Shown one piece after another: positions 2,787 through 61,165 of a DNA stretch of 64,000 bases. The stretch's first letter is position 1; every line of letters starts with the position of its first letter. Source of the DNA: Bacillus bingmayongensis (GTDB lineage Bacteria; Bacillota; Bacilli; Bacillales; Bacillaceae_G); the NCBI RefSeq assembly GCF_000299035.1, contig NZ_JH921518.1, positions 284,439-348,438 on the forward strand, given 5' to 3'. Under the pieces are notes generated by a model, which was not told where the DNA came from, did not search any database, and was given only the letters and a program-made list of their open reading frames with translations. The position numbers were made by a program, and so were the translations under genes.

Positions 2787-4001
2787 TTAACTAACTTCCA
2801 AATGCTCTTTTTCTGATATCTCTGCGCTTTTACTATTGAAATATACCCAAATGCAGGCCATGAATAAAAGCGATGCTGTAGAGAAAAATACATATTGAAA
2901 TCCAGCATGTGCAGCAATTTGTCCACCGAGTACTGGTCCAATCATATTCCCTAAAAACTGAAAGGATTGATTATAACCAAAGACACGTCCAGTTACATGA
3001 TGTGGTGTATGTTGTTTTAGTAGAGTTTGTACGGAAGGTAACAATCCAGCTTGTGCAATCCCTAATAGAAAACGCAGTATTAATAATTGCCAAGCAGCTG
3101 TCACAAATGCTTGAGGGATAAAGATAATTCCTGCAACAAACAATGCTACAATTAAAGTTTTTTGAGGACCAATATGATCCGATAATCTTCCTAGTTTAGG
3201 AGCTGCTAAAATCACAGCTAAACCTGTCGCAGACATCACTGCCCCCGCAATTATTTCAATATGAGCTGTATGAGGACCCGCTAAATGTTTCACATACAAC
3301 GTAATAATAGGTTGTATTGACATATTTGCAAGTTGAATCATAAAAGTTGCTACAAATAAACTGATAATAAAGTGTTTTGCCGGAACCATCGTCCATACTT
3401 TTTTTGGTTGCTCTTTTTTCGCTTGAACAGAATGATTCGATTCATGTAAGAAGAAAAAAACAATTAAAAATGAAAGAAATAAAAAAGCACCCGTTATAAA
3501 AAATACGTGGCGCATTCCGATTAATTCAGACAAATACCCACCAAGCATTGGTCCAAGTAATGAACCACTTACACCGCCAGTTGATATAGTAGAAATCGCC
3601 CAACCTGAATGTTCTTTCGGTGTTTCTGCTGCAACGAATGTCATTGCAGTGGAGAGAAAACCAGATACAGCTCCCATTAAAAAACGGAGTGCGACTAATT
3701 GATACACATTTGTGACAAAACCCATGAGTGTCATAATAATCGCCATCCCAAGGCTTGCACGAATAAGCATCAATTTCCGTCCATGTATATCACCGAGTTT
3801 TCCCCATATTGGCGATACAATCGCGCCCATTAAAAAAGTGACCCCGAATGCAATTCCCGACCACTGTGCAATTTCGGATGTACCCGTTACGCCTAGATCC
3901 TCAATATAAAAGGATAAGAATGGTATCACTAAGCTCATACCTGCTGCAGTGGTAAAACAACCAAGCCAACAAATCATTAAATTTCTTTTCCAGCTGGCCA
4001 T
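2787..4001 (-). CDS. MFS multidrug-type efflux transporter (MdtG-like)
   Basis: The 404-residue membrane protein has about twelve hydrophobic segments in two halves. It opens MASWKRNLMICWLGCFTTAAGMS and carries the MFS loop motif GKLGDIHGRK between helices 2 and 3 and its second-half equivalent GRLSDHIG. This resembles MdtG/NorA-like drug:proton antiporters of the 12-helix group. The frame extends further upstream to 4163, but that part is un-MFS-like and overlaps a terminator. An AGAAGGTG site fits the ATG at 4001. It lies downstream of the E1/peptidase gene on the same strand behind a strong hairpin. A role as peptide exporter for that locus is possible but unproven. The substrate is unknown. 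Confidence 0.85.
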   Translation of the reverse strand: MASWKRNLMICWLGCFTTAAGMSLVIPFLSFYIEDLGVTGTSEIAQWSGIAFGVTFLMGAIVSPIWGKLGDIHGRKLMLIRASLGMAIIMTLMGFVTNVYQLVALRFLMGAVSGFLSTAMTFVAAETPKEHSGWAISTISTGGVSGSLLGPMLGGYLSELIGMRHVFFITGAFLFLSFLIVFFFLHESNHSVQAKKEQPKKVWTMVPAKHFIISLFVATFMIQLANMSIQPIITLYVKHLAGPHTAHIEIIAGAVMSATGLAVILAAPKLGRLSDHIGPQKTLIVALFVAGIIFIPQAFVTAAWQLLILRFLLGIAQAGLLPSVQTLLKQHTPHHVTGRVFGYNQSFQFLGNMIGPVLGGQIAAHAGFQYVFFSTASLLFMACIWVYFNSKSAEISEKEHLEVS

Positions 4002-4120: not shown

Positions 4121-4174
4121 AAAAATAAAAATTGCTAATAAAGATATATACCTTTATTAGCAATTTTTATTTTT
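4121..4174 (-). terminator. Terminator of the E1/peptidase gene
   Basis: A 23-pair perfect stem (4121-4143 with 4152-4174) overlaps the stop codon of the 4173 gene. It is AT-rich with A/T tails and separates that gene from the MFS gene. Confidence 0.8.
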
Positions 4175-6704
4175 AACTAGAATGGACTATATCTTCTAGT
4201 ACGAACAACTCAAGTTTATTCAAAATTTGGAGCAGTTCATGAATCGCTTGCTCCATAAATTCACCATAAGATATTCCATTTGACATAAAAACTAAAAACT
4301 CTTCCGTACGATACATCCTATTTAATAAAGCCTCTTGCATTTGAATATCTTTCGGAATCCTTGATATCACTTGTTCGCAACATAAGCCAATTGCCAATAA
4401 ATACGCAATTGGAGGTAAAACGTGATCTCCAAATTCAAAAATAAATGAAGTCTTCAAAAGTGGATTTAAATAGGAGTATGTTTCATTTTTAAATTTTATA
4501 TCTTCAAAAAATGGATGCTGATTATACTCTTCTCGAATTCTCAAAAAGTCTGTTGTGGAAATTTCTCCATGATTCTGCACATATTGTATTAAACTCGTTT
4601 CAAATAAATGAACCCCATATGTAGATAAAACAACTTGGTGTATTCTTTTTACATACTGCCTCGCAATTTCTTGCTTTAATTCTGAACTTATATCCTTATT
4701 CCGTAAAATGGCTTGAATACAAGTAATTTCAAAGTAGTATGCCATAATTTCATTTAGTAATTGAGTGCTATCATCAAAGAATGTGTGTCCATAACTTTGA
4801 TTAAAATACGCATGTCCTAATTCATGGCATAATATAAATAAACTATCTACATCTTCATGATAATTAAACAAGATTCTACTTTCTTTTATATTTGGAAAGT
4901 AGTATGTTTTATTCACTTCAATTTCATTGTACACTTGTACAAAATCATATTGAAACATTCTTTCAATATGATTAATCCAGCGCTCTTGTCCGATTTGTTC
5001 TAAACTGCTAAGTATTATTTCTTTTGCTTCATCAATAGAAATGACACTTCTTTCTTCTTCATTATAAGCTAAAAAATCCGCATGAATTTCTCCTGTTGAA
5101 TTTGGAAATATGATTGATAAACTTTTCGTAATAAGAGCATGGAAATTCTCCTGTAATTTCTCCTCAAATGTCTGTAACGTCTCTTTCTTCACTCCAAATA
5201 CTTCTAGGTAATATTCAGGTGTTTCCATAGATAAATATGCTTGCTTACTCTTTGTAAAAAACTGAAGAATTTCATTTCCTTTGCTTTGCAATAACTCGTA
5301 AACTCTTCTCTGCAATTCTTTCTTTTCCTCATAATTCTTTAAGTCACGCATCATTCCGAAAATTTCAGATATAGCATATGTCTCACCTTGATAGACAATT
5401 TTAAGCTCTCGAATGATTTGTAAGTACCGCTCATACTCTGCTGTATTTCCTTCCTGTTCTTCTATATTATGTAGAAGTCTAACAAAATCATGATACCTAT
5501 CCTCGAGTTCCAAAGTAGACAATTGATCCATATGAAGTAAAATGTCGAAAGCTTGATACATAGATAATATATCAATTTCAATTACTTTCGGAAGTATAGA
5601 TCCTTCAGCATACATTATGTTAGAAATTTCATCTATCTTACGCTTCATTTTTTCTTGTTGTAGAGGCATAATTGTTTGCAGCGATTGAATAAACGGATTG
5701 CGGGGAATGAACTCGTCATCGGCTGAAGTCCGGAAGTTTATAAAATCGAAGCTATACGCGCTTTTCATTGCATACTCATCATTGGCAATATCAGCAAATA
5801 TAATTCGACTAATAATAAGCGAAACAGCTAAACCTTGAATAATGGTTCCTCTATTTTCTCGAATCACATATTCTGTATCGTAATTTTGAAAACTATCCTC
5901 AAGTATTAAAGCACTATCATTGCTATTACTTACATGCAATACTTTTACGAAATCATTATGGTATCCCATTAGAAAATACTTAATTTTCTCTTCATCACAA
6001 TAGTTCATGATGTCTTTATGTAGTTGTAACGAAGCTTCATCAAAGCATCCAAAAATATAACTTATCTCATTTAATTTTAATTGTAATAAATCATTAATTG
6101 TTTCTATTTTCTTATCAAACACTTGAACTTTTACATAAGGATCCATTTTACCCACTCTCTCTTGGATAACATGGATTTTTTTCTTTTTAATATCGTCTGT
6201 TTGAAATATCGTTTGTGCTCTAATATTTTTAGGGTGAACCGTATCAAAATCAATTACAATAATCTCACCAACACCAAGTTTCGATAGCGTCATGCACAAT
6301 GTTGCTCCAATCGTACCAACTCCGATAACAACAGCCCTTATCTTCTTCATCTTATGAACAATTGTATCTGCATGTTTAGTGTGATCATGGGTACTGAAAT
6401 AGTTAAAATTTCTAAGATTAAATAACTGTTCTTCTTTATCTCCATCACAACGCTTTTCATATAGAAGTTGATTCTCATTTATAAACTGAATAATACTTTG
6501 TAATTCTTCATCATCTACTCCATTCATGTTCTTCCATGCATATATTTCTTCACGAACATCCCCTACAGGATTCTCTAAAATTTTTAATAATGACCATAGT
6601 TTTTGAAACTCATTTACTTCAATAATGCGCTCTTCCCCATCATAATAAACAACTTCATTTTTGTTAGGATATCCCCTAAAATTTAAACTTGTTTTCAATC
6701 TCAT
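4173..6704 (-). CDS. ThiF/E1-like adenylation domain fused to M3-like metallopeptidase; candidate RiPP maturase
   Basis: The protein has 843 residues and three visible parts. Residues 1-110 may be a small winged-helix peptide-binding (RRE-like) region. Residues ~120-330 are an E1/ThiF-like Rossmann domain, with G128-V-G-T-I-G133, an acidic strand VIDFDTV and NIRAQTIF, as in ThiF, MoeB and MccB; no CxxC zinc pairs were seen. The C-terminal half resembles M3 oligoendopeptidases, with zinc motif HELGH (627-631) and a downstream Glu in LNEIMAYYFE. E1-like enzymes adenylate a peptide C-terminal carboxylate; M3 enzymes cut short peptides. A GGAGAG site fits the ATG. The gene lies 58 bases after a 23-residue Cys-ending peptide gene. 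Inference: it modifies and trims that peptide. All catalytic motifs look intact. The domain order is unfamiliar to me, and no function should be treated as known. Confidence 0.75.
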   Translation of the reverse strand: MRLKTSLNFRGYPNKNEVVYYDGEERIIEVNEFQKLWSLLKILENPVGDVREEIYAWKNMNGVDDEELQSIIQFINENQLLYEKRCDGDKEEQLFNLRNFNYFSTHDHTKHADTIVHKMKKIRAVVIGVGTIGATLCMTLSKLGVGEIIVIDFDTVHPKNIRAQTIFQTDDIKKKKIHVIQERVGKMDPYVKVQVFDKKIETINDLLQLKLNEISYIFGCFDEASLQLHKDIMNYCDEEKIKYFLMGYHNDFVKVLHVSNSNDSALILEDSFQNYDTEYVIRENRGTIIQGLAVSLIISRIIFADIANDEYAMKSAYSFDFINFRTSADDEFIPRNPFIQSLQTIMPLQQEKMKRKIDEISNIMYAEGSILPKVIEIDILSMYQAFDILLHMDQLSTLELEDRYHDFVRLLHNIEEQEGNTAEYERYLQIIRELKIVYQGETYAISEIFGMMRDLKNYEEKKELQRRVYELLQSKGNEILQFFTKSKQAYLSMETPEYYLEVFGVKKETLQTFEEKLQENFHALITKSLSIIFPNSTGEIHADFLAYNEEERSVISIDEAKEIILSSLEQIGQERWINHIERMFQYDFVQVYNEIEVNKTYYFPNIKESRILFNYHEDVDSLFILCHELGHAYFNQSYGHTFFDDSTQLLNEIMAYYFEITCIQAILRNKDISSELKQEIARQYVKRIHQVVLSTYGVHLFETSLIQYVQNHGEISTTDFLRIREEYNQHPFFEDIKFKNETYSYLNPLLKTSFIFEFGDHVLPPIAYLLAIGLCCEQVISRIPKDIQMQEALLNRMYRTEEFLVFMSNGISYGEFMEQAIHELLQILNKLELFVLEDIVHSS

Positions 6705-6725
6705 ATTCTTCTCTCCATTTCATTG

Positions 6726-6757
6726 AAAAAGAAGGTGTTTTCACACCTTCTTCTTTT
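6726..6757 (-). terminator. Intercistronic terminator/attenuator between peptide gene and E1/peptidase gene
   Basis: GAAGGTGT (6731-6738) pairs with ACACCTTC (6743-6750), flanked by A and T runs. On the minus strand the stem is followed by TTTTTC, directly before the next gene's ribosome site. Such a leaky terminator after a precursor gene gives more peptide than enzyme, as in many bacteriocin operons (inference). Confidence 0.75.
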
Positions 6758-6762
6758 TAAAA

Positions 6763-6834
6763 CTAGCATAATAACAAACACACACATTGATTCTCTCGTT
6801 GCGTAGCTTTTTTAATTTTCACAGTTAGTTTCAT
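6763..6834 (-). CDS. Candidate RiPP precursor peptide, 23 residues, Cys-rich C-terminus
   Basis: The ATG at 6834 has an AGGGGG site seven bases upstream. The peptide begins MKLTVKIKK and ends CVCLLLC, with TAG directly after Cys23. A basic N-terminal half (possible leader), a polar linker and a short hydrophobic tail with three cysteines (17, 19, 23) fit a ribosomally made, post-translationally modified peptide. A terminator-like hairpin and then the E1/M3 fusion gene follow on the same strand. It is too short for ordinary gene callers. No known family is recognised. The alternative is a chance ORF or a leader peptide for attenuation, but the ribosome site, hairpin and partner gene together favour a true precursor. 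Confidence 0.6.
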   Translation of the reverse strand: MKLTVKIKKATQRENQCVCLLLC

Positions 6835-6873
6835 TTGAAGACCCCCTTTTTTATGTATTGGTAATACAAGGAT

Positions 6874-6903
6874 ATATTAACAATCATCACCTAATAACTT
6901 CAA
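6874..6903 (-). promoter_or_regulatory. Candidate sigma-A promoter of the peptide locus
   Basis: On the minus strand, TTGAAG (6898-6903) and TAATAT (6874-6879) are separated by 18 bases and lie about 40 bases before the peptide ATG. The match is partial (4/6 in each box). Confidence 0.3.
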
Positions 6904-7214
6904 CTCAATTCCACATATTCAGAATTTTCAGAGGTTGAGAAAACGCTTTCTAATGCCTATTACTTCTACCGTTCTATCATTTATTTCCCAATCAAAAACC
7001 ATTGGCACAATAGCGTTTTATATTTTATCAAGTGAAATATTTTATTCCAAAAATATAATATTTCCAAAATATTTCACTTCAAAATCATTATTCTCTATTG
7101 ATTAAAGAATTGAATACATACCACATTTTTCAAGATGAAACTAAAGTTTATAGAAGACCGTTATGTAACGAATTGACAAAATGATAAAATACAATGTCAA
7201 GGAGAAGTGGTGAT
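6904..7214. other. Gene-free stretch with one AT-rich inverted repeat
   Basis: No supported gene was found on either strand. A 13-pair inverted repeat (7030-7042 with 7067-7079, core AAGTGAAATATTT) could be an old terminator or a binding site. The last bases hold the ribosome site of the DinB pseudogene. Confidence 0.4.
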
Positions 7215-7509
7215 ATGCATTTTAATTTAAAAGAATCTATTAAAATACTGGAACGAGCACCACATACATTGGAGTATTTTTTTATCTGGTCTATCGGATG
7301 AATGGATATAATGTAATGACATCGATGGAACCTGGAATATTTCAGAAGTAATTGTTCACCTCATTGAAGGGGAAAAAAATAATTGAATACTAAGGTTGGA
7401 AATGATTCTTCAAGAAGATAAAAGTAAATCATTTCCAACATTTGATTGCTATTCTTGCCTAAATGAAGCTTGTGAAGGCTCAGTAGAACAAAAATTACTT
7501 CAGCATTAA
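7215..7509 (+). pseudogene. Decayed DinB-superfamily (YfiT-like) gene
   Basis: A good AGGAGAAG site and ATG (7215) begin MHFNLKESIKILERAPHTLEY, typical of small DinB-like metal-binding proteins. One extra T in the T-run near 7275 shifts the frame. After restoring it, SGLSDEW and GTWNISEVIVHLIEGE are readable but broken by an in-frame TAA and later a TGA before LRLEMILQ. The C-terminal half is missing. DinB-like proteins are four-helix-bundle thiol transferases or related enzymes of uncertain role. Three independent lesions show it is dead. Confidence 0.75.
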
Positions 7510-7563
7510 AACTCCGCATTTTCACTAGAGGGGCTTGATTAAACTTTATTCAAAACCCAAAAT

Positions 7564-7614
7564 AAAATGCTATAGAAACAATAGAAGAATTGCTTATTGT
7601 TTCTATAGCATTTT
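7564..7614 (-). terminator. Terminator of the Clp-N/GNAT gene
   Basis: A 20-pair perfect stem (7564-7583 with 7595-7614) ends at the stop codon of the following minus-strand gene. Confidence 0.85.
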
Positions 7615-8486
7615 CAATTTTCTACCCTATATTTAGGTATTACTTGTGCACGACAGCTCTTTTCATAAAATTCAAGCGGACCTGCTTGACCAATAATTGC
7701 ATATTCATAACCAATTTGCTTCATGTCAGACAAGCATTGATGTAATAATTCTTTCCCCACACCTTTTACACGATTATGTTTAGCTGTTCCCATTGGTCCA
7801 AACAGTCCTTTTCTTCCTCTTACAATATCATAACAAGCAAAACCGATAATTTTTTCATTTTGCTTTGCAATATAAATTGGTGGTTCTTTATATTCTTGAA
7901 AACCTTTACTCACCGTTTCAATCCATCGTTCACCAAATTCATACTTAACAAACTGGAGAAGCTCTTCTAAATCAGATTGAGTTACTCTTCTAATGTTATA
8001 AATTTGGTGATTCATCATTGATATTTCATCGTTTTTCAAATTCACAATCATATCTCTTGGTACTGATACAATCTGTAAAATACTTTGTTTCACACCTTCA
8101 CTTATTACATTTTGAATCTCCTCATCTAGCTGAAGAATCGAGCTTAAAACATGGCCTTCATTTACATATACTTGATTAAACTTTTCCATCTTACGCTTAG
8201 CTAATTGTAATATTTCTATTGTTTTATAAGAAACTTTATATCCTTGTACTTCTATATATCTTTTATCTTGAAAGTCCGTTTGTTGTAATTGTACGAATTT
8301 CGTTACAAAATCTATCCCTATATAATGAAATAAACACATATACAATTCACTACAAACCCCTGTTCCTTCTTTATAAGCTCCTATAAATAAATCTAACGGA
8401 CGAATGATATAATCATTATATTTAGATTCTTTGTTTGCAATTTGAAACATTCTATCTACTCGTTTTGTGCACTGGAATTCTCTCAT
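7614..8486 (-). CDS. GNAT acetyltransferase with N-terminal Clp-repeat-like domain
   Basis: The 290-residue protein has two parts. Residues 1-150 look like a ClpA/ClpC N-domain double repeat (a helical region with NEGHVLSSIL, as in Clp-N repeats). Residues ~165-290 are a GNAT fold: IRRVTQSDLEELLQF at strand 1, IYIAKQNEKIIGFACYD, an acetyl-CoA loop region KHNRVKGVGKELLHQCL, and FYEKSCRA near the end. GNAT enzymes move acetyl groups from acetyl-CoA to amines. The Clp-like part suggests substrate recognition or docking; the target is unknown. GGGAGA precedes the ATG. It sits 14 bases after the histidine kinase gene on the same strand and could be co-transcribed with the two-component system. Confidence 0.75.
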   Translation of the reverse strand: MREFQCTKRVDRMFQIANKESKYNDYIIRPLDLFIGAYKEGTGVCSELYMCLFHYIGIDFVTKFVQLQQTDFQDKRYIEVQGYKVSYKTIEILQLAKRKMEKFNQVYVNEGHVLSSILQLDEEIQNVISEGVKQSILQIVSVPRDMIVNLKNDEISMMNHQIYNIRRVTQSDLEELLQFVKYEFGERWIETVSKGFQEYKEPPIYIAKQNEKIIGFACYDIVRGRKGLFGPMGTAKHNRVKGVGKELLHQCLSDMKQIGYEYAIIGQAGPLEFYEKSCRAQVIPKYRVEN

Positions 8487-10695: not shown

Positions 10696-11628
10696 ATGAA
10701 TTATATTTTGAAAACGACAGGGTTAACAAAAAAATATCGAAATGATTATGTAGTACATAACGTAGATTTAAAAATTCCAAAAGGAGAGATTTATGGATTT
10801 CTTGGGCCTAACGGAGCTGGTAAAACAACTAGCATTCGCATGTTATTAGGCCTTATTAAACCAACGCAAGGAAAGGTCGTGATATTTCAACAGGATTTGG
10901 CTAAAGAACGCTTATCCATATTATCTAAAATTGGAGCTCTCGTTGAAAATCCATCTTATTATGCCCACCTAAATGCCCTTGAGAATTTAGAGGTTTACCG
11001 GATTTTAAGAAATGCTCCGAAAGAAAAAATTGAGGAAGTGCTACAAATTGTCGGTTTACAACATGCTGCCAAACAAAAGGTAAAAGAATATTCATTAGGA
11101 ATGAAACAACGGTTAGGAATTGCCATTGCCTTACTTGGTGATCCGCAGCTATTAATTTTAGACGAGCCAACAAATGGACTTGATCCAGAAGGGATTCATG
11201 AAATTCGTATGCTAATTAAACAACTGGCAAAAGAAAGAGGAATTACCATCCTTATCTCTAGTCACTTATTAAGTGAAATTGATCAAATGGCAACTTATGT
11301 TGGAATCATTGCAAAAGGAAAGCTTATTTTTCAAGATAAAATAGAGATATTGCGCCAGCATGCTCAGCATTCTATTACACTCATGACAGACAAACCGAAT
11401 GCAGCTTGGAAGCTCATTCTCGCTAAAGGGATTCCTTCTATGCAAGAGGAGAATCAAATTATTCTATCAAATGTATCAAATGAAACTATTGGCGAAATTG
11501 TAAAAATACTTGTAACACATAACATTTCTGTATTCCGAATTGAAGAAAATAAAAAGTCACTCGAAGAAATATTCTTACAGCTTATAAAGGAGGAAGAGAC
11601 ACATGTACAAACGCCTCTTTCAATCTGA
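10696..11628 (+). CDS. ABC transporter ATPase, bacitracin/lantibiotic-resistance type
   Basis: The 310-residue protein has Walker A GPNGAGKTT (~38-46), Q-loop, signature YSLGMKQRLGIA, Walker B LLILDEPTNGLD and the switch His in ISSHLLSE. A ~90-residue C-terminal extension follows, as in BcrA and LanF proteins. It powers export or membrane clearance of an envelope-active peptide or other substrate through the two permeases encoded next. The permease start overlaps its end by 26 bases. The ribosome site is GAGGTGAT. It is divergent from a two-component system that probably controls it. LanFEG systems confer self-immunity to lantibiotics, but no lantibiotic genes are visible here. Confidence 0.88.
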   Translation: MNYILKTTGLTKKYRNDYVVHNVDLKIPKGEIYGFLGPNGAGKTTSIRMLLGLIKPTQGKVVIFQQDLAKERLSILSKIGALVENPSYYAHLNALENLEVYRILRNAPKEKIEEVLQIVGLQHAAKQKVKEYSLGMKQRLGIAIALLGDPQLLILDEPTNGLDPEGIHEIRMLIKQLAKERGITILISSHLLSEIDQMATYVGIIAKGKLIFQDKIEILRQHAQHSITLMTDKPNAAWKLILAKGIPSMQEENQIILSNVSNETIGEIVKILVTHNISVFRIEENKKSLEEIFLQLIKEEETHVQTPLSI

Positions 11629-12319
11629 GCTTTTAAAAATAAAAAGGAAGTGGATTTGGTTTTTAATCTTTTTAGGACCAATAGGTGTTATTTCTCTTCA
11701 AGCATGCAACTTTTTTCTTCGTTATGATTTTTTGACAAATAAATATGCGAAGGACTTATGGAGCGGCCTCATTTCTGAAGCTCAACCGCTTGCTCTCACA
11801 ACTCTTATATTAGGAATTACGATTGTTACTTCTTTAATTGCACACATAGAGCATCATTCTAGTTCATGGAAACATCTCTTATCCTTACCTATTAATAAAC
11901 GACACATTTTTCTAGTAAAATTCATACTGGTATTTTTCCTGCTTACTGTATCTTGTTCTTTATTATTGATTGGCATAGTTGGATTGGGCTTATCATTACA
12001 ATTCGATGCTTCAATTCCATGGCTTTCTATATTTAAAATGAGTTTCTATCCTTATTGGTCGGCACTGCCAATTGTAGCGCTACAACTATGGATTGCTATC
12101 ATATTTCAAAACCAAAGTATCGCATTTACAATCGGACTTTTAGGAACTATTTTTACAATGTTTTCAGTAGCTCTTCCCAATTGGTTCATATGGAGATGGC
12201 CAAGCCTACGTATTGACTGGGGGTCTCCACTTCTATGTGTAGCAATAGGCCTAATCGTTGGTATATGTATGTTATGTATTGAAACAGCAGATTTTATTAG
12301 AAGGGATGTGCATAAATAA
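11603..12319 (+). CDS. ABC transporter permease (LanE/BcrB-like), first of two
   Basis: The 238-residue protein has about six hydrophobic segments, an N-terminus MYKRLFQSELLKIKRKW and the early motif SSWKHLLSLPINKRHIF, characteristic of ABC-2 permeases of the LanE/G and BcrB group. It is membrane-embedded and pairs with the second permease (27% or so similar in layout, by eye only). A strong AAAGGAGG site lies inside the ATPase gene end, so the ATG at 11603 is secure. Its stop overlaps the next ATG (TAATG), showing translational coupling. Substrate unknown. Confidence 0.82.
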   Translation: MYKRLFQSELLKIKRKWIWFLIFLGPIGVISLQACNFFLRYDFLTNKYAKDLWSGLISEAQPLALTTLILGITIVTSLIAHIEHHSSSWKHLLSLPINKRHIFLVKFILVFFLLTVSCSLLLIGIVGLGLSLQFDASIPWLSIFKMSFYPYWSALPIVALQLWIAIIFQNQSIAFTIGLLGTIFTMFSVALPNWFIWRWPSLRIDWGSPLLCVAIGLIVGICMLCIETADFIRRDVHK

Positions 12320-13047
12320 TGCTTTGGCTTAAAACCATACAAGCTGAATTTTATAAAATTAAAAAAACCAAAATATGGACATTACTATTTTTAAGCCCGA
12401 TTTTAGCAGGAGTAATAGCTTATGCAAATGCCTCAAACTATCCCGATTATAAACATTGGGAGTTGATTTATAATATCATGATAATGGTACATGGTATGTT
12501 GCTTCTTCCATTATTAACAGGCATTTACACTGCATTTATTTGCCGATATGAGCATTCAAACGGGGGATGGAAACAACTTTTGGTGCAACCGATAGCAAGG
12601 TATCATACCTATATAACAAAATTTTTCTTTGTTCTCTTATTTGTAGGTACAATGCAAATTCTCTTCATTATAAGCTATGTTAGTGTTGGACAACTTTTAC
12701 ATATATCTGGTCCAGTCCCTCTCATTCCTACAATTAAAAGTATTATAGGCGGTTGGATTGCTACTCTACCTTTAATTGCCTTACAATTATGGGTTTCAAC
12801 CATCTGGTCTAGCTTTGCAGCACCGATTGCTTTAAATGTTATAGCTTCCATACCCGCTATGATAATTGCAAATTCTGCGAGGTTTGGTCCCATCTATCCA
12901 TGGTCCCAACCTTTTCTCGCAATGCTTCCTAAAGAAGGCTCTGGGCTGTTTTATATCTCTTTTCAAACACTAGTATTTGTCGTAATTGGGAGCTTTGTGA
13001 TTTTATTTATAGGTGGCTTTGTTCATTTTATGAAAAAAGCATATTAA
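12319..13047 (+). CDS. ABC transporter permease (LanG/BcrB-like), second of two
   Basis: The 242-residue polytopic protein begins MLWLKTIQAEFYKIKKTKIW and has the matching NGGWKQLLVQPIARYHTYITK segment after the second helix, so it is a paralogue of the preceding permease. Together with the ATPase they form a heterodimeric ABC-2 exporter or peptide-clearance pump. Its start lies in the stop codon of the previous gene. A strong terminator closes the operon at 13061-13098. The short ABC-2 permease lengths favour the LanFEG/BcrAB group over BceAB, whose permease is far larger. Confidence 0.82.
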   Translation: MLWLKTIQAEFYKIKKTKIWTLLFLSPILAGVIAYANASNYPDYKHWELIYNIMIMVHGMLLLPLLTGIYTAFICRYEHSNGGWKQLLVQPIARYHTYITKFFFVLLFVGTMQILFIISYVSVGQLLHISGPVPLIPTIKSIIGGWIATLPLIALQLWVSTIWSSFAAPIALNVIASIPAMIIANSARFGPIYPWSQPFLAMLPKEGSGLFYISFQTLVFVVIGSFVILFIGGFVHFMKKAY

Positions 13048-22344: not shown

Positions 22345-22640
22345 AAATATCCTCGTCTCAGCAATCGATTTTCTACAAACGTGTAGCAATCCATTGCTGA
22401 GACGAGGGAATCGTGGTACCACTCAGCTTCCTTATACTTCTCGCGAAATACAAGCTCTGTAAGTCCTATTAGACTTTTGTTCTTTTATCGTGAACAACTC
22501 CGCTGCTCTCTACTCAGTTTTTTCGAAGGCAGTGCTCTGAGGTGATCTTCAATCGATACAATTGTTACCACCCTCTCAGCCAAGGGGCAGCTCTCTGAAA
22601 CAATTTATATCGTTTACTCTCCTCTTCTTTGCATTCTTCT
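22345..22640 (-). promoter_or_regulatory. T-box riboswitch 2 (proximal) of the ilv operon, Ile (ATC) specifier
   Basis: On the minus strand a stem I region is followed by the specifier context TTGAAG-ATC-ACCTCAGAGC, then the T-box GAGTGGTACCACGA near 22410-22427. A terminator follows with arms CTCGTCTCAGCAATGG and its complement (about 22350-22408). The specifier was placed by alignment with the asnA T-box in this window, where the same slot reads AAC. Uncharged tRNA-Ile should stabilise the antiterminator and allow readthrough into ilvE. Confidence 0.85.
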
Positions 22641-22654
22641 ATTCTCTTTTCTAA

Positions 22655-22950
22655 AGTAAAAACTCTCGCCTCAGCAATCAATCACTACATCATAGTAGCT
22701 TTGATTGCCGAGGCGAGAGTTTCGCGTTACCACTCAGCTTCCTTATACTTCTCACGAAATATAAGCTCTATAGGTCCTGTCAGACCCTCGTCCATTTATC
22801 GGAGACGATACCGCCGCTCTCTACTCAGTTTCCCTTTCGCAAGCGATGCTCCGAGGTGATCTTCAATGATTCGATCGTTGCCACCCTCACAGCCACGGGG
22901 TAGCTCTCTGAAACTTTCATAATCATCTACTTTCCTCTTCTTTGCACATA
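22655..22950 (-). promoter_or_regulatory. T-box riboswitch 1 (distal) of the ilv operon, Ile (ATC) specifier
   Basis: This is a second complete T-box directly upstream of the first. The specifier context is TTGAAG-ATC-ACCTCGGAGC, the T-box is GAGTGGTAACGCGA (about 22721-22736), and the terminator arms are CTCTCGCCTCGGCAATCA with its complement (about 22660-22712). It is highly similar to the proximal copy over the whole length, so it is a duplication. Both must be bound for full-length transcripts. Confidence 0.85.
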
Positions 22951-23000
22951 CCATATATAAAAGTTAGAAAATTCTTAATTAACTTTAAGTTGTTACACGT

Positions 23001-24658: not shown

Positions 24659-25603
24659 TTACTTATTCATTTCATTTTTCAACTGCAAAGCAATCAAACT
24701 AGCAAAATCATGCACTAGTGTCGCAGCTAATAAAGAAGTAATTTGAGCTTGGTCATATGGTGGTAACACTTCCACTAAATCGAATCCAATATAATTAAAT
24801 CCACTTAATGAACGCACCATATTTAGCGTCTCTCGACTGTTAAAACCTCCTACTTCTAACGTACCTGTACCCGGTGCACAAGATGGGTCTACAAAATCAA
24901 TATCAAACGTCAAGAAACATGGCGTATCCCCAATTGTTGCTCGCATTTGCTGAAGAACACTTTCAAAACCACGATCACATAATTCGGCTGTCGTAATGAC
25001 GTTATATCCCAAATCATTACTAGCTTCTATATCCCCAGGGTGATTCAATGTTCCTCGAATTCCAATTTGGAATACTTTGTCTGGTTGTAGCAATCCCTCC
25101 TCATGCGCACGTATAAATGGTGAACCATGCCAATATTTTTCCTCATAATATGTATCCCATGTATCTGTGTGCGAATCGAAATGAATCATCGCTACAGGTC
25201 CATGAACTTTCGCTGCTGCACGAAGACTTGCTAATGTAACAGAATGATCTCCTCCAAGACCTATTGGAATGATTCCTTGCTTCATTAATCCAAAAACAGC
25301 TTCTTCAATTAAATCATAGCTACGGTGAATATTGTGTGGGATAACAGAAACATCCCCAATATCAATCGCATTTGTGTCATCAAACGGGTATACATGATGA
25401 ATTGGATGATATGGAAACAGCGTCATAGATGCTTGACGAATAGCTTGCGGAGCAAAACGCGCACCAACGCGAAAAGAAGCAGCAGTATCAAAAGGCATTC
25501 CTAAAATAGCAACCTTTGCTTGCTCATTACTTGATGATAATCTCATAAATGTACCTGTCGTACAAAACTCTGGTTTTACATCTGGCGTTAGTGGATATTT
25601 CAT
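24659..25603 (-). CDS. Arginase/agmatinase-family ureohydrolase
   Basis: The 314-residue protein has the two-manganese motifs of the family: GGDHSVT, HFDSHTDTWD and FDIDFVDPSCAPGTGT. The family hydrolyses agmatine, arginine, guanidinobutyrate or formiminoglutamate to urea (or formamide) and an amine or acid. The motif set is agmatinase-like, but the protein is longer than B. subtilis SpeB (about 290) and no speA or hut genes adjoin, so the substrate is uncertain and no symbol is given. It is monocistronic. Confidence 0.85.
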   Translation of the reverse strand: MKYPLTPDVKPEFCTTGTFMRLSSSNEQAKVAILGMPFDTAASFRVGARFAPQAIRQASMTLFPYHPIHHVYPFDDTNAIDIGDVSVIPHNIHRSYDLIEEAVFGLMKQGIIPIGLGGDHSVTLASLRAAAKVHGPVAMIHFDSHTDTWDTYYEEKYWHGSPFIRAHEEGLLQPDKVFQIGIRGTLNHPGDIEASNDLGYNVITTAELCDRGFESVLQQMRATIGDTPCFLTFDIDFVDPSCAPGTGTLEVGGFNSRETLNMVRSLSGFNYIGFDLVEVLPPYDQAQITSLLAATLVHDFASLIALQLKNEMNK

Positions 25604-29573: not shown

Positions 29574-29990
29574 CGCCCCTACAAAACGTAGGGACGATGA
29601 AAATATCGCGGTACCACCCTAGTTGTGAAGAATGCTAAGAAACCACCGAAATAAAAAACGTCCCTACGTAAAACGTAGGGACGATAAAATATCGCGGTAC
29701 CACCCTAGTTATGAAGATACAACAAGAATAACCCTAAAATAAAAAACGCCCCTACGTAAAAACGTAGGGACGATATATATCGCGGTACCACCCTAGTTGT
29801 GAAAAAATTCTTCACCACTTTATTTGATAACGGTATACACTACCGTCTTTCATTTCCTCACAATGTGAGATTTATGAAAGATGCTCCAGGACGAACTTCA
29901 TGAATAATCTATATACTGATTCACACCAACCATCAGCTCTCTGACATAGGGAGATTTTCACTACTTTACCCTTTCATTGCTCAACTATAT
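29574..29990 (-). promoter_or_regulatory. T-box leader with one stem I and three antiterminator/terminator modules; Phe (TTC) specifier
   Basis: One stem I region (about 29865-29990) has the specifier context CATGAAG-TTC-GTCCTGGAGC. Downstream the T-box core CTAGGGTGGTACCGCG occurs three times (about 29780-29797, 29692-29709, 29608-29623). Each is followed by a terminator with a CGTAGGGAC-type arm (29749-29772, 29660-29683, 29576-29595). The linkers between modules are only about 35 bases and hold no second stem I. Confidence 0.85.
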
Positions 29991-48194: not shown

Positions 48195-48247
48195 AAAACA
48201 AATGTTACCAATAACTTCATAAACCAAACACTCTCGCCCAAAACGTG

Positions 48248-48428
48248 AGATAGAGGTTGCAGCGCTTATAAGTATTTTAAAGGAGACACAGAGATGTCGA
48301 TGAGTTTAGAAAAAAGGAAGTGTTGCCGAAATTGATAAATTTCTCTGCATTTATCAATTGGGGCTGTTTTCGAATAGAGACAGAACTGTCATATATACAG
48401 ACGTGTATGTATGAAGAGCTATCTACAA
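48248..48428 (+). promoter_or_regulatory. Lysine riboswitch (L box)
   Basis: The aptamer opens GATAGAGGTTGC and closes GAAGAGCTATCT, forming P1. In between are GGAGACACAGAGATGTCGATG, split as GGAGACAC and GATGTCGATGAG, then AAGTGTTGCCGAA with a stem TTGATAAAT/ATTTATCAA, then GGGGCTG and a final stem around ACAGACGTGTATGT. These are the conserved L-box blocks. Lysine binding would favour the downstream terminator and switch lysC off. Confidence 0.9.
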
Positions 48429-48466
48429 AAAAGAGATATCATTCTTTATATGATATTCCTTTTTTG
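48429..48466 (+). terminator. Riboswitch expression-platform terminator
   Basis: GATATCA pairs with TGATATT directly after the aptamer and is followed by CCTTTTTTGG. Confidence 0.65.
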
Positions 48467-60861: not shown

Positions 60862-61165
60862 CAAAAAAAGCCCTTCTTTCCCAAAAAACTGGGACGAAAG
60901 GCTTTGGTTCCGCGGTACCACCCAAATTAGCAACAGAGGTTGCTCACTTATTCAGTACGGAGATTAAAGAAATCTCGATACTGTTCTTCTTGTAACGGCG
61001 AAGTTCCCGGCTAAGTCTACTTTCCTCTAAAGGATTTCGGTTAGCGACTCCAGGAGGTTCTTCATAACAGGCTTCGTATCAGGCTCACACCACCCCTGAC
61101 TCGCTTCGACTACATCCTACTACTACTCGTCCTTTCACAGTCGTTTTGTTGTCACATCTCTGAAA
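60862..61165 (-). promoter_or_regulatory. T-box riboswitch of asnA, Asn (AAC) specifier
   Basis: The specifier context is TATGAAG-AAC-CTCCTGGAGTC. The T-box AATTTGGGTGGTACCGCGG lies at about 60910-60928 and the terminator (GCCCTTCTTTCCC arm with GGG-ACGAAAGGC) at about 60862-60907. AAC fits an asparagine synthetase and validates the alignment used for the other T-boxes here. Confidence 0.92.

Follow-up and report, generated by a model that had tools for sequence, protein, structure and literature searches.

The question raised by this locus is whether a short gene with a cysteine-rich end and the large enzyme gene behind it together produce a modified peptide and, if so, by which chemistry. 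The locus lies in a 64,000-nucleotide stretch of Bacillus bingmayongensis DNA, referred to here as the window. A preliminary description had proposed an undescribed RiPP locus, in which a small precursor is processed by a fusion of an E1-like enzyme and an M3 peptidase. Our analysis indicates that this is very probably a RiPP locus with C-terminal activation. The precursor and the single E1-peptidase enzyme were recovered, but ThiF-like RiPPs are already an established class with several chemistries, as described in PMC12250964 and PMC12150305, and the locus is thus a variant rather than an unknown kind. It is best filed as kin to the MccB, PaaA, GrcB, EnfB, and IndF systems, with the C-x-C-L-x-x-C tail and the built-in M3-like protease as its new features. 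The coordinates are collected in Table 1.

Table 1. Features of the locus, in positions of the window.
Feature	Positions	Strand	Basis
MFS efflux transporter (MdtG-like), downstream	2787..4001	-	Family matches, terminator scan
Strong terminator-like hairpin, 3' of enzyme gene	4124..4171	-	Terminator scan; fold z -9.96
RRE-like/ThiF-E1/M3-like peptidase fusion, 843 aa	4173..6704	-	One open frame; family, PDB, and alignment matches
M3-like metallopeptidase core, residues 545-739	4488..5072	-	TIGR02290 and pairwise match
HELGH zinc motif, residues 627-631	4812..4826	-	Translation and alignment
ThiF/E1 adenylation domain, residues 117-244	5973..6356	-	Pfam PF00899 and alignment
Predicted leader-binding (RRE-like) N-terminal domain, residues 1-84	6453..6704	-	
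Stable RNA hairpin, between peptide and enzyme genes	6726..6755	-	Fold z -4.74
Precursor peptide gene, 23 aa, MKLTVKIKKATQRENQCVCLLLC; tail C-x-C-L-x-x-C	6763..6834	-	Open reading frame and short-ORF scans
Ribosome-site-like AAAGGGGG, 5' of peptide gene	6842..6849	-	Sequence inspection and short-ORF scan

The 23-residue Cys-tailed peptide gene was found as first described, with its strong ribosome site immediately upstream and a stop codon directly after the final Cys of the tail CVCLLLC. An ending of the form C-x-C-x(3)-C occurred in 2 of 5152 short ORFs from 39 sequences (2 of 3633 for the first 29 of them), and both ORFs lay directly 5' of genes for ThiF-HELGH proteins. The chance level in first-order Markov DNA was 1 in 49,725 ORFs; the occurrence of this tail before a ThiF-HELGH gene is above chance. 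Three more Cys-final ORFs in the 39 sequences carried three Cys in their last seven residues at a different spacing. One is on the plus strand of the window, ending at 25234 opposite an arginase gene, and another is on a viral contig. The third, from Streptomyces, ends at position 3779 of its sequence within an annotated regulator gene, but a stand-alone ThiF gene follows at a distance of only about 170 bases; this ORF was read as a chance occurrence instead of a precursor. A visual likeness between the window and Exiguobacterium leaders was given no weight because equally high scores arose in 77 of 2000 shuffles.

The second tail of this form belongs to Ligilactobacillus salivarius. Its plasmid pLMP1046 encodes a 724-aa homologue of both halves of the enzyme, preceded by a short ORF ending in CFCLAFC, and the Cys spacing is identical in the two Cys-tailed members (n = 2). 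The recurrence of a Cys-ending ORF upstream of fusion homologues, which the preliminary description had named as a check, was therefore observed in the single available case. The two enzymes matched over residues 3-313 (tblastn, E = 3e-16), and their peptidase halves matched by BLASTP (E = 6e-5), with 0 of 500 shuffles equally good. Identity in the MAFFT alignment was 26 to 27%, with HELGH and Glu652 kept. A ThiF-HExxH protein of L. plantarum follows a peptide without Cys that ends in WILI (...IWILI), and this tail resembles the published Ind and Enf tails more than the window peptide does. Kinship of the second half of the L. plantarum protein to the window half was unsupported (17 of 500 shuffles equally good), and against the L. 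salivarius half 182 of 500 shuffles were equally good. NCBIfam gave no match for the second half of either lactobacillar protein.

Further members were sought in several collections, in which negatives carry little weight for Bacillota genomes. The E1 part matched 301 plasmid records; two sets of 60 were listed, and 19 plasmid loci were inspected. ThiF-HExxH proteins among these loci were recognized by annotated gene length and aligned sequences, with a Salmonella locus (L024) outside the call, and were found only in L. salivarius and the L. plantarum group (L003, L007, and L026). The window peptidase half recovered two stand-alone M3 proteins from plasmids but not the L. salivarius protein, the L. 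salivarius half recovered only pLMP1046 itself, and the peptide alone matched no plasmid. Genome contigs gave a single Arthrobacter ThiF match without HExxH in its open frame. Six viral contigs matched the E1 part, all lacking HExxH in the open frame, and six phage records matched the E1 part only. In the phylum of Arthrobacter, 251 of 296 genomes matched, and among the matches listed each spanned one half only, with no fusion. Neither a ThiF-M3 fusion nor a C-x-C-L-x-x-C precursor was found described in the available portions of the literature. The system may already be in print in the original GrcB and EnfB papers or among the further candidate clusters to which the IndF paper points in its supplements.

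The 843-residue protein is encoded in a single open frame with the G128-x-G-x-x-G nucleotide motif and an intact HELGH, as first reported. Its residues 1-84 likely form a leader-binding, RRE-like domain. The fold ranking of residues 1-95 placed the MccB N-terminal domain on top at a low Z, in lists where the lack of a family does not exclude it. Foldseek with the N-terminal model returned nothing under E = 0.001, hhalign among RRE regions gave no useful match, and AlphaFold2 modeled the entire protein with a pLDDT of 35.3. The adjoining region matched ThiF (PF00899, residues 117-244) with an E value of 2.6e-26. Most ATP-site residues are present; D152, Q164, K176, and D222 are identical in 9 of 9 aligned E1s, including MccB of the mcc operon, whereas position 163 is Ala in the window enzyme and Arg in the six other aligned enzymes. 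In line with the comparison to MccB and PaaA in the preliminary description, MccB was the best PDB match of the E1 part (E = 7.7e-14, or 1.2e-19 with a two-sequence profile), and PaaA was also among the matches. An E1 tree of 9 rows with long branches, drawn up without the Salmonella row, united the window, L. salivarius, and L. plantarum (L003) enzymes with support of 95/96.

HELGH followed by Glu652 was present within M3-like sequence, and this Glu is common to the window, L. salivarius, and L. plantarum (L003) proteins and a stand-alone M3 protein (L002). The M3 label is based on local matches: TIGR02290 over residues 545-739 (E = 2.7e-11, far short of the family cut-off; 2.9e-11 with the half alone), oligoendopeptidase F in the PDB (2qr4; E = 2.8e-5), and a stand-alone M3 peptidase in a pairwise comparison (E = 2e-13). 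However, the Pfam M3 model (PF01432) matched none of the window, L. salivarius, and L. plantarum (L003) proteins up to an E value of 1, and the half is thus at best a diverged relative of peptidase family M3. It shares HELGH, the downstream Glu, and local similarity with M3B oligoendopeptidases of the PepF type but differs from them in its divergence, its fusion behind an E1 domain, and its score below the family cut-off.

Between the two genes, a terminator-like hairpin had been reported. A stable hairpin is present (-17.1 kcal/mol, with 0 of 200 shuffles equally good), but because the terminator scan called it on the plus strand only, it is better described on the coding strand as a hairpin whose 3' arm is rich in U than as a textbook terminator. 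Hairpins also lie between precursor and enzyme genes in the L. salivarius locus (z = -5.88) and in the mccA-mccB stretch of the mcc plasmid control (z = -3.89), where a terminator separating mccA and mccB is documented in PMC6495379. By analogy, the window hairpin may set the ratio of peptide to enzyme.

Among the neighbors, the downstream MFS protein is a possible exporter of the peptide product. Its membership in the operon was rejected as proven, given the terminator between the genes and the lack of close kinship to the L. salivarius MFS, whose gene overlaps the fusion gene by 4 bases. The family scan covered 18 window proteins, a selection of the ORFs that included the fusion and the peptide. 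It found no radical SAM, sulfur carrier, rhodanese, or AgrB-like family and no E2, cyclase, ubiquitin-like, or JAB family among them.

As a whole, the reading that we consider reasonably probable is a small operon for a RiPP of the ThiF-like adenylyltransferase type, with a thiolactone-forming scheme. The RRE-like N terminus would bind the N-terminal part of the peptide (MKLTVKIKKATQR...), and the ThiF/E1 domain would activate Cys23 at its C-terminal carboxylate by ATP-dependent adenylation. Attack by the thiol of an internal Cys would release AMP and close a thiolactone macrocycle of five residues via Cys19 or seven via Cys17. Leader removal would fall to the M3-like domain of this enzyme, and export of the product, possibly a signal or an antibacterial, to a transporter. 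Taken separately, the specific proposal that a Cys thiol captures the activated C terminus as a thiolactone or thioester has slightly less than an even chance.

Several described systems offer parallels to this scheme. MccB forms C-terminal thioesters with external thiols if the last Asn is changed to Gly (PMC13255007). GRC RiPPs (GrcA/GrcB) carry a thiolactone made by a ThiF-like enzyme, as proposed here; GrcB forms it between Glu35 and Cys39 in a precursor of 39 residues (PMC12250964), and this i, i+4 spacing equals that of Cys19 and Cys23. The acyl partner is Glu in GRC, however, whereas the window peptide has Cys at -5, and GRC clusters contain radical SAM enzymes. Ind RiPPs of Streptococcus pneumoniae (IndA/IndF/IndP) share a ThiF-like enzyme, a zinc peptidase, and a precursor with the window system and, by our proposal, the joining of the C-terminal carboxylate to an internal side chain and leader removal by the peptidase. 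According to PMC12150305, IndF links Trp to the C-terminal Ile, and leader cleavage was seen with an S. equi homologue of the peptidase from the cluster, which acts faster on modified peptide. The Ind product is a Trp-Ile indolylamide in NWYFI and the peptidase a separate M16 enzyme, in contrast to the Cys tail and fused M3-like peptidase of the window. The enterofaecin system (EnfA/EnfB) likewise has an RRE-bearing ThiF-like enzyme that modifies a short precursor at its C-terminal end, as predicted here, but uses a WWIVI motif, gives an imide or amide, and has no described fused peptidase. The Trp and C-terminal Ile motif of Ind and enterofaecin is found in neither the window nor the L. salivarius peptide. 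Staphylococcal autoinducing peptides (AgrD/AgrB) are made by AgrB, a membrane peptidase; no AgrB-like family was seen among the 18 scanned window proteins. A five-residue Cys-to-C-terminus thiolactone would equal these peptides, which are named in PMC12250964, in ring size. We tentatively suggest that one RRE-E1-M3 protein could be an ATP-driven cytosolic maker of such autoinducer-like, five-residue Cys-to-C-terminal-Cys thiolactones, clipping the leader as well.

Alternatively, the Cys tail might be activated without thiolactone formation, giving an imide, a C-terminal amide, a thiocarboxylate, or an intermolecular thioester, possibly with a disulfide. ThiF-like enzymes do lead from one acyl-adenylate to very different products, such as the imide or amide of EnfB (PMC12250964), but three Cys at fixed positions in two distant members fit thiol chemistry and the scan of 18 window proteins revealed no sulfur carrier or rhodanese, and this outcome appears somewhat unlikely. 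A microcin C-like peptide-nucleotide, in which the E1 joins a nucleotide to the C terminus of a Trojan-horse antibiotic and the M3 half trims it or gives self-immunity, is improbable. Microcin C of E. coli (MccA/MccB) shares the ThiF/E1 fold, a similar N-terminal domain, and the short upstream precursor, MccB is the nearest solved relative of the E1 half, and the order of precursor, hairpin, and E1, with the adjoining MFS in L. salivarius, matches the mcc plasmid control. However, the chemistry of microcin C takes place on the side chain of an Asn at the C terminus (PMC13255007 and PMC12150305), whereas both members here end in Cys; the same short-ORF scan recovered the 7-aa, Asn-ending MccA (MRTGNAN) from the mcc plasmid. 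MccB also lacks a peptidase and has Arg in place of Ala163, and besides a GNAT-family gene (7614-8486) no further microcin C-type genes were seen among the scanned window proteins.

The short ORF could also be a regulatory leader of the enzyme gene, a Cys- or Leu-sensing attenuator, instead of a precursor. Its Cys/Leu-rich end followed by a hairpin agrees with this, but the family matches of the enzyme point to no Cys or Leu metabolism gene, the Cys spacing is the same in both loci, and precursors next to the enzyme gene are usual in the ThiF-like class. A known riboswitch or T-box was rejected as well, as no Rfam element reached the gathering score at the locus, and attenuation is highly improbable. 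Finally, an E1-based conjugation or anti-phage module (CBASS Cap2-like or Bub-like), with the metallopeptidase reversing conjugation, is scarcely credible: PADLOC E1-E2 models do recognize the adenylation fold (best E = 4.3e-13 in the window and 8.6e-17 in L. salivarius), but all of the matches listed are confined to the E1 fold and the stretch before it (about 170 residues at most), the E2, cyclase, and ubiquitin-like families are absent from the 18 scanned proteins, and the peptidase is HELGH/M3-like, not JAB, and an E1-E2 defense system was rejected.

ThiF-like enzymes lead from one acyl-adenylate intermediate to many bond types, and each subfamily described in the papers cited here forms a different one. 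In this locus, a cysteine probably serves as the nucleophile, and one polypeptide seems to combine modification with leader cutting. If the one-protein scheme tentatively suggested above is true, the window host and a lactic acid bacterium would share a new C-x-C-L-x-x-C RiPP subclass, and molecules shaped like autoinducing peptides would be made by a route with no relation to AgrB. Such a compact two-gene system, making and releasing a modified and perhaps cyclic peptide, would be of use in enzymology and a possible source of a new signal or antibacterial.

A short Cys-ended peptide ORF, a hairpin, and a ThiF/HELGH fusion gene had been read from the window in the preliminary description, and this observation was confirmed by ORF, folding, and Pfam/NCBIfam analyses. 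The peptide itself matched no Pfam or NCBIfam model, and Rfam at its gathering score placed no element at the peptide-enzyme locus. The 58-nt gap between the two genes holds a hairpin of -17.1 kcal/mol (z -4.74), which was equaled by 0 of 200 shuffles. The GC content was 30 to 32% in the enzyme region and 37 to 39% in the 2-4 kb downstream stretch with the MFS gene. Composition does not set the locus apart, since the opposite flank (7-9 kb) was also at about 30%.

Features of the window and of related plasmid loci
Sequence	Feature	Position	Strand	Remark
Window	Peptide ORF, 23 codons	6834-6763	-	Ends CVCLLLC; AAAGGGGG ahead of start
Window	Enzyme ORF, 843 aa	6704-4173	-	
Window	Long terminator-like hairpin	4171-4124	-	3' of enzyme ORF
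Window	MFS gene	4001-2787	-	Behind the terminator-like hairpin
Window	Broken-looking remnant	7194-7525		Between GNAT gene and peptide gene
Window	Two-component system	10518-8501		
Window	ABC transporter and two ABC-2 permeases	10696-13047		Like lantibiotic-protection modules
Window	T-box leader(s)	22395-22951	-	
Window	T-box leader(s)	29763-29986	-	
Window	T-box leader(s)	60887-61147	-	
Window	Lysine riboswitch	48243-48429	+	
L003 (L. plantarum pKM2-1; near copies L007, L026)	ThiF-HExxH protein, Rgg-type regulator, MFS gene	5799-7734		Upstream peptide ...SIWILI
L004 (Exiguobacterium alkaliphilum pE73)	Three identical Asn-ended ORFs in a row	5353-5648	-	MKTVVIKKNSVRAKVVLGYN

The ThiF domain spans residues 117 to 244 of the enzyme (Pfam, E 2.6e-26). 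In a PDB search, three MccB sequences were the top matches (best E 7.7e-14), followed by ThiF, with PaaA also among the matches; a profile of the window and Ligilactobacillus salivarius proteins matched MccB at E 1.2e-19, ubiquitin E1s next, and PaaA at 3.7e-10. Nine E1 sequences were aligned, including MccB from the mcc plasmid (L022), whose MccA, MRTGNAN, was recovered as a control by the short-ORF scan used for the window. D152, Q164, K176, and D222 were identical in 9/9, and an Ala was common to the window, L. salivarius (L001), and L003 proteins where the other six have Arg. For IndF, which lies outside the alignment, PMC12150305 names K179 and Q167 as alpha-phosphate contacts; compared by number, these two are 12 residues apart, as are K176 and Q164. 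In the peptidase half, an M3 oligoendopeptidase model matched residues 545 to 739 (NCBIfam, E 2.7e-11, far below the model cut-off), and the Pfam M3 model was not reported for the enzyme. Over some 220 residues, this half aligned at 28% with a free-standing M3 peptidase from Alkalihalophilus pseudofirmus (E 2e-13), with HELGH and a later Glu (E652) kept.

By tblastn of 72,556 plasmid records, one protein related in both halves was found, of 724 aa, on L. salivarius pLMP1046. Its E1 part matched residues 3 to 313 at E 3e-16, and the peptidase halves aligned by BLASTP at E 6e-5, with 27% over 183 residues around HELGH; in a separate shuffle test, 0 of 500 shuffles reached the alignment score of the two halves. 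Identity by MAFFT was 26 to 27%. The kinship is distant: this protein was not among the matches of the plasmid search with the window peptidase half, and its own peptidase half had no NCBIfam match. Among the matches listed for 296 genomes of the Arthrobacter phylum, only one-half matches were seen. Whether a Cys-ending ORF recurs had been asked beforehand, and one lies directly upstream of the enzyme in the one both-half homologue found (n=1): 34 aa from the best ribosome site, MKKEELKNEVLKELATLVDEDVQSKDVCFCLAFC, or 48 aa when read from the earliest start. It is missing from the pLMP1046 gene table, which is itself incomplete. The peptide ORF is followed by a strongly folding gap (z -5.88), the enzyme, and an MFS gene overlapping the enzyme by 4 bases; the window MFS protein is not close kin to this one (E 0.32).

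Short ORFs of 15 to 80 aa were counted in six frames of 39 sequences (355,247 bases), which include near-duplicates (L003/L026, the similar L007, and L035/L038). Cys-ended ORFs numbered 135 of 5152, and the C-x-C-x(3)-C end occurred in 2/5152, the window and L. salivarius peptides; the case is carried by these two Cys-tailed members (n=2). In the first 29 sequences the count was 2/3633, and in first-order Markov copies of these it was 1/49,725.

The interpretation as a RiPP locus held up largely, but the system is best placed within an existing class, the ThiF-like RiPPs, rather than outside known kinds. In these, according to PMC12250964 and PMC12150305, a carboxylate near the precursor end is adenylated and a nucleophile displaces AMP: the Asn side chain in microcin C, the Cys thiol in GRC, the indole in Ind, and the backbone amide in enterofaecin. 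We infer that the window system probably works similarly. Because only three Cys and one Leu are shared at the ends of the two peptides, a Cys thiol would be the natural nucleophile; Cys at -5 would give a five-residue ring and Cys at -7 a seven-residue ring. With Cys at -5, the Glu-Cys bond of GRC cannot form in that shape. MccB is described in PMC13255007 as able to pass the activated end to thiols. The Ind leader is cut by a zinc peptidase that prefers the modified peptide (PMC12150305). In the window, the leader would be cut by the peptidase half of the modifying enzyme itself. The intergenic hairpin recalls the mccA-mccB terminator (PMC6495379) and may keep peptide output high and enzyme output low.

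Between 1.7 and 6.2 kb upstream of the peptide gene are the two-component system and the ABC module. The module's ATPase matched TIGR03740 at E 9.4e-78 and its permeases gave E 7.8e-11 and 2.6e-13, each match scoring under its model cut-off. Both systems may serve peptide immunity or general peptide-antibiotic resistance, or be unrelated to the peptide. The remnant, whose start we take to resemble a DinB-family protein, suggests local gene turnover. Elsewhere, the window carries a lysine riboswitch and four T-box leaders, of which two form a tandem ahead of the ilv-like genes at 16.6-22.3 kb.

Other ThiF loci carried other tails. The 617-aa ThiF-HEVFH protein of L003 clustered with the window and L. 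salivarius proteins in the E1 tree (nine rows, long branches; support 95/96), and shuffle comparison gave no demonstrable relation of its second half to theirs. Its upstream ORF, MKQSKTMIFIKTAILAFSIWILI, places a Trp at the fourth position from its end; IndA has the core EDTTNWYFI, whose Trp is bonded to the last Ile (PMC12150305), and EnfA bears WWIVI (PMC12250964). This locus may encode a pathway of Ind/enterofaecin type that carries a fused peptidase of its own. The three Exiguobacterium ORFs lie on the strand opposite the ThiF-like enzyme and diverge from it; they may be three precursor copies of a microcin C-like system. The Macrococcoides caseolyticum ThiF locus has an Asn-ended short ORF, MENNKKEVLDILDFVDIDIAYTINEPGRN; that strain's cluster is counted as GRC-like in the review PMC12250964. 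In several further ThiF loci examined, no clear precursor was recognised. Tails thus differ between subgroups, with the Cys tail marking the window's subgroup, which speaks against Cys being used by every ThiF-HExxH protein.
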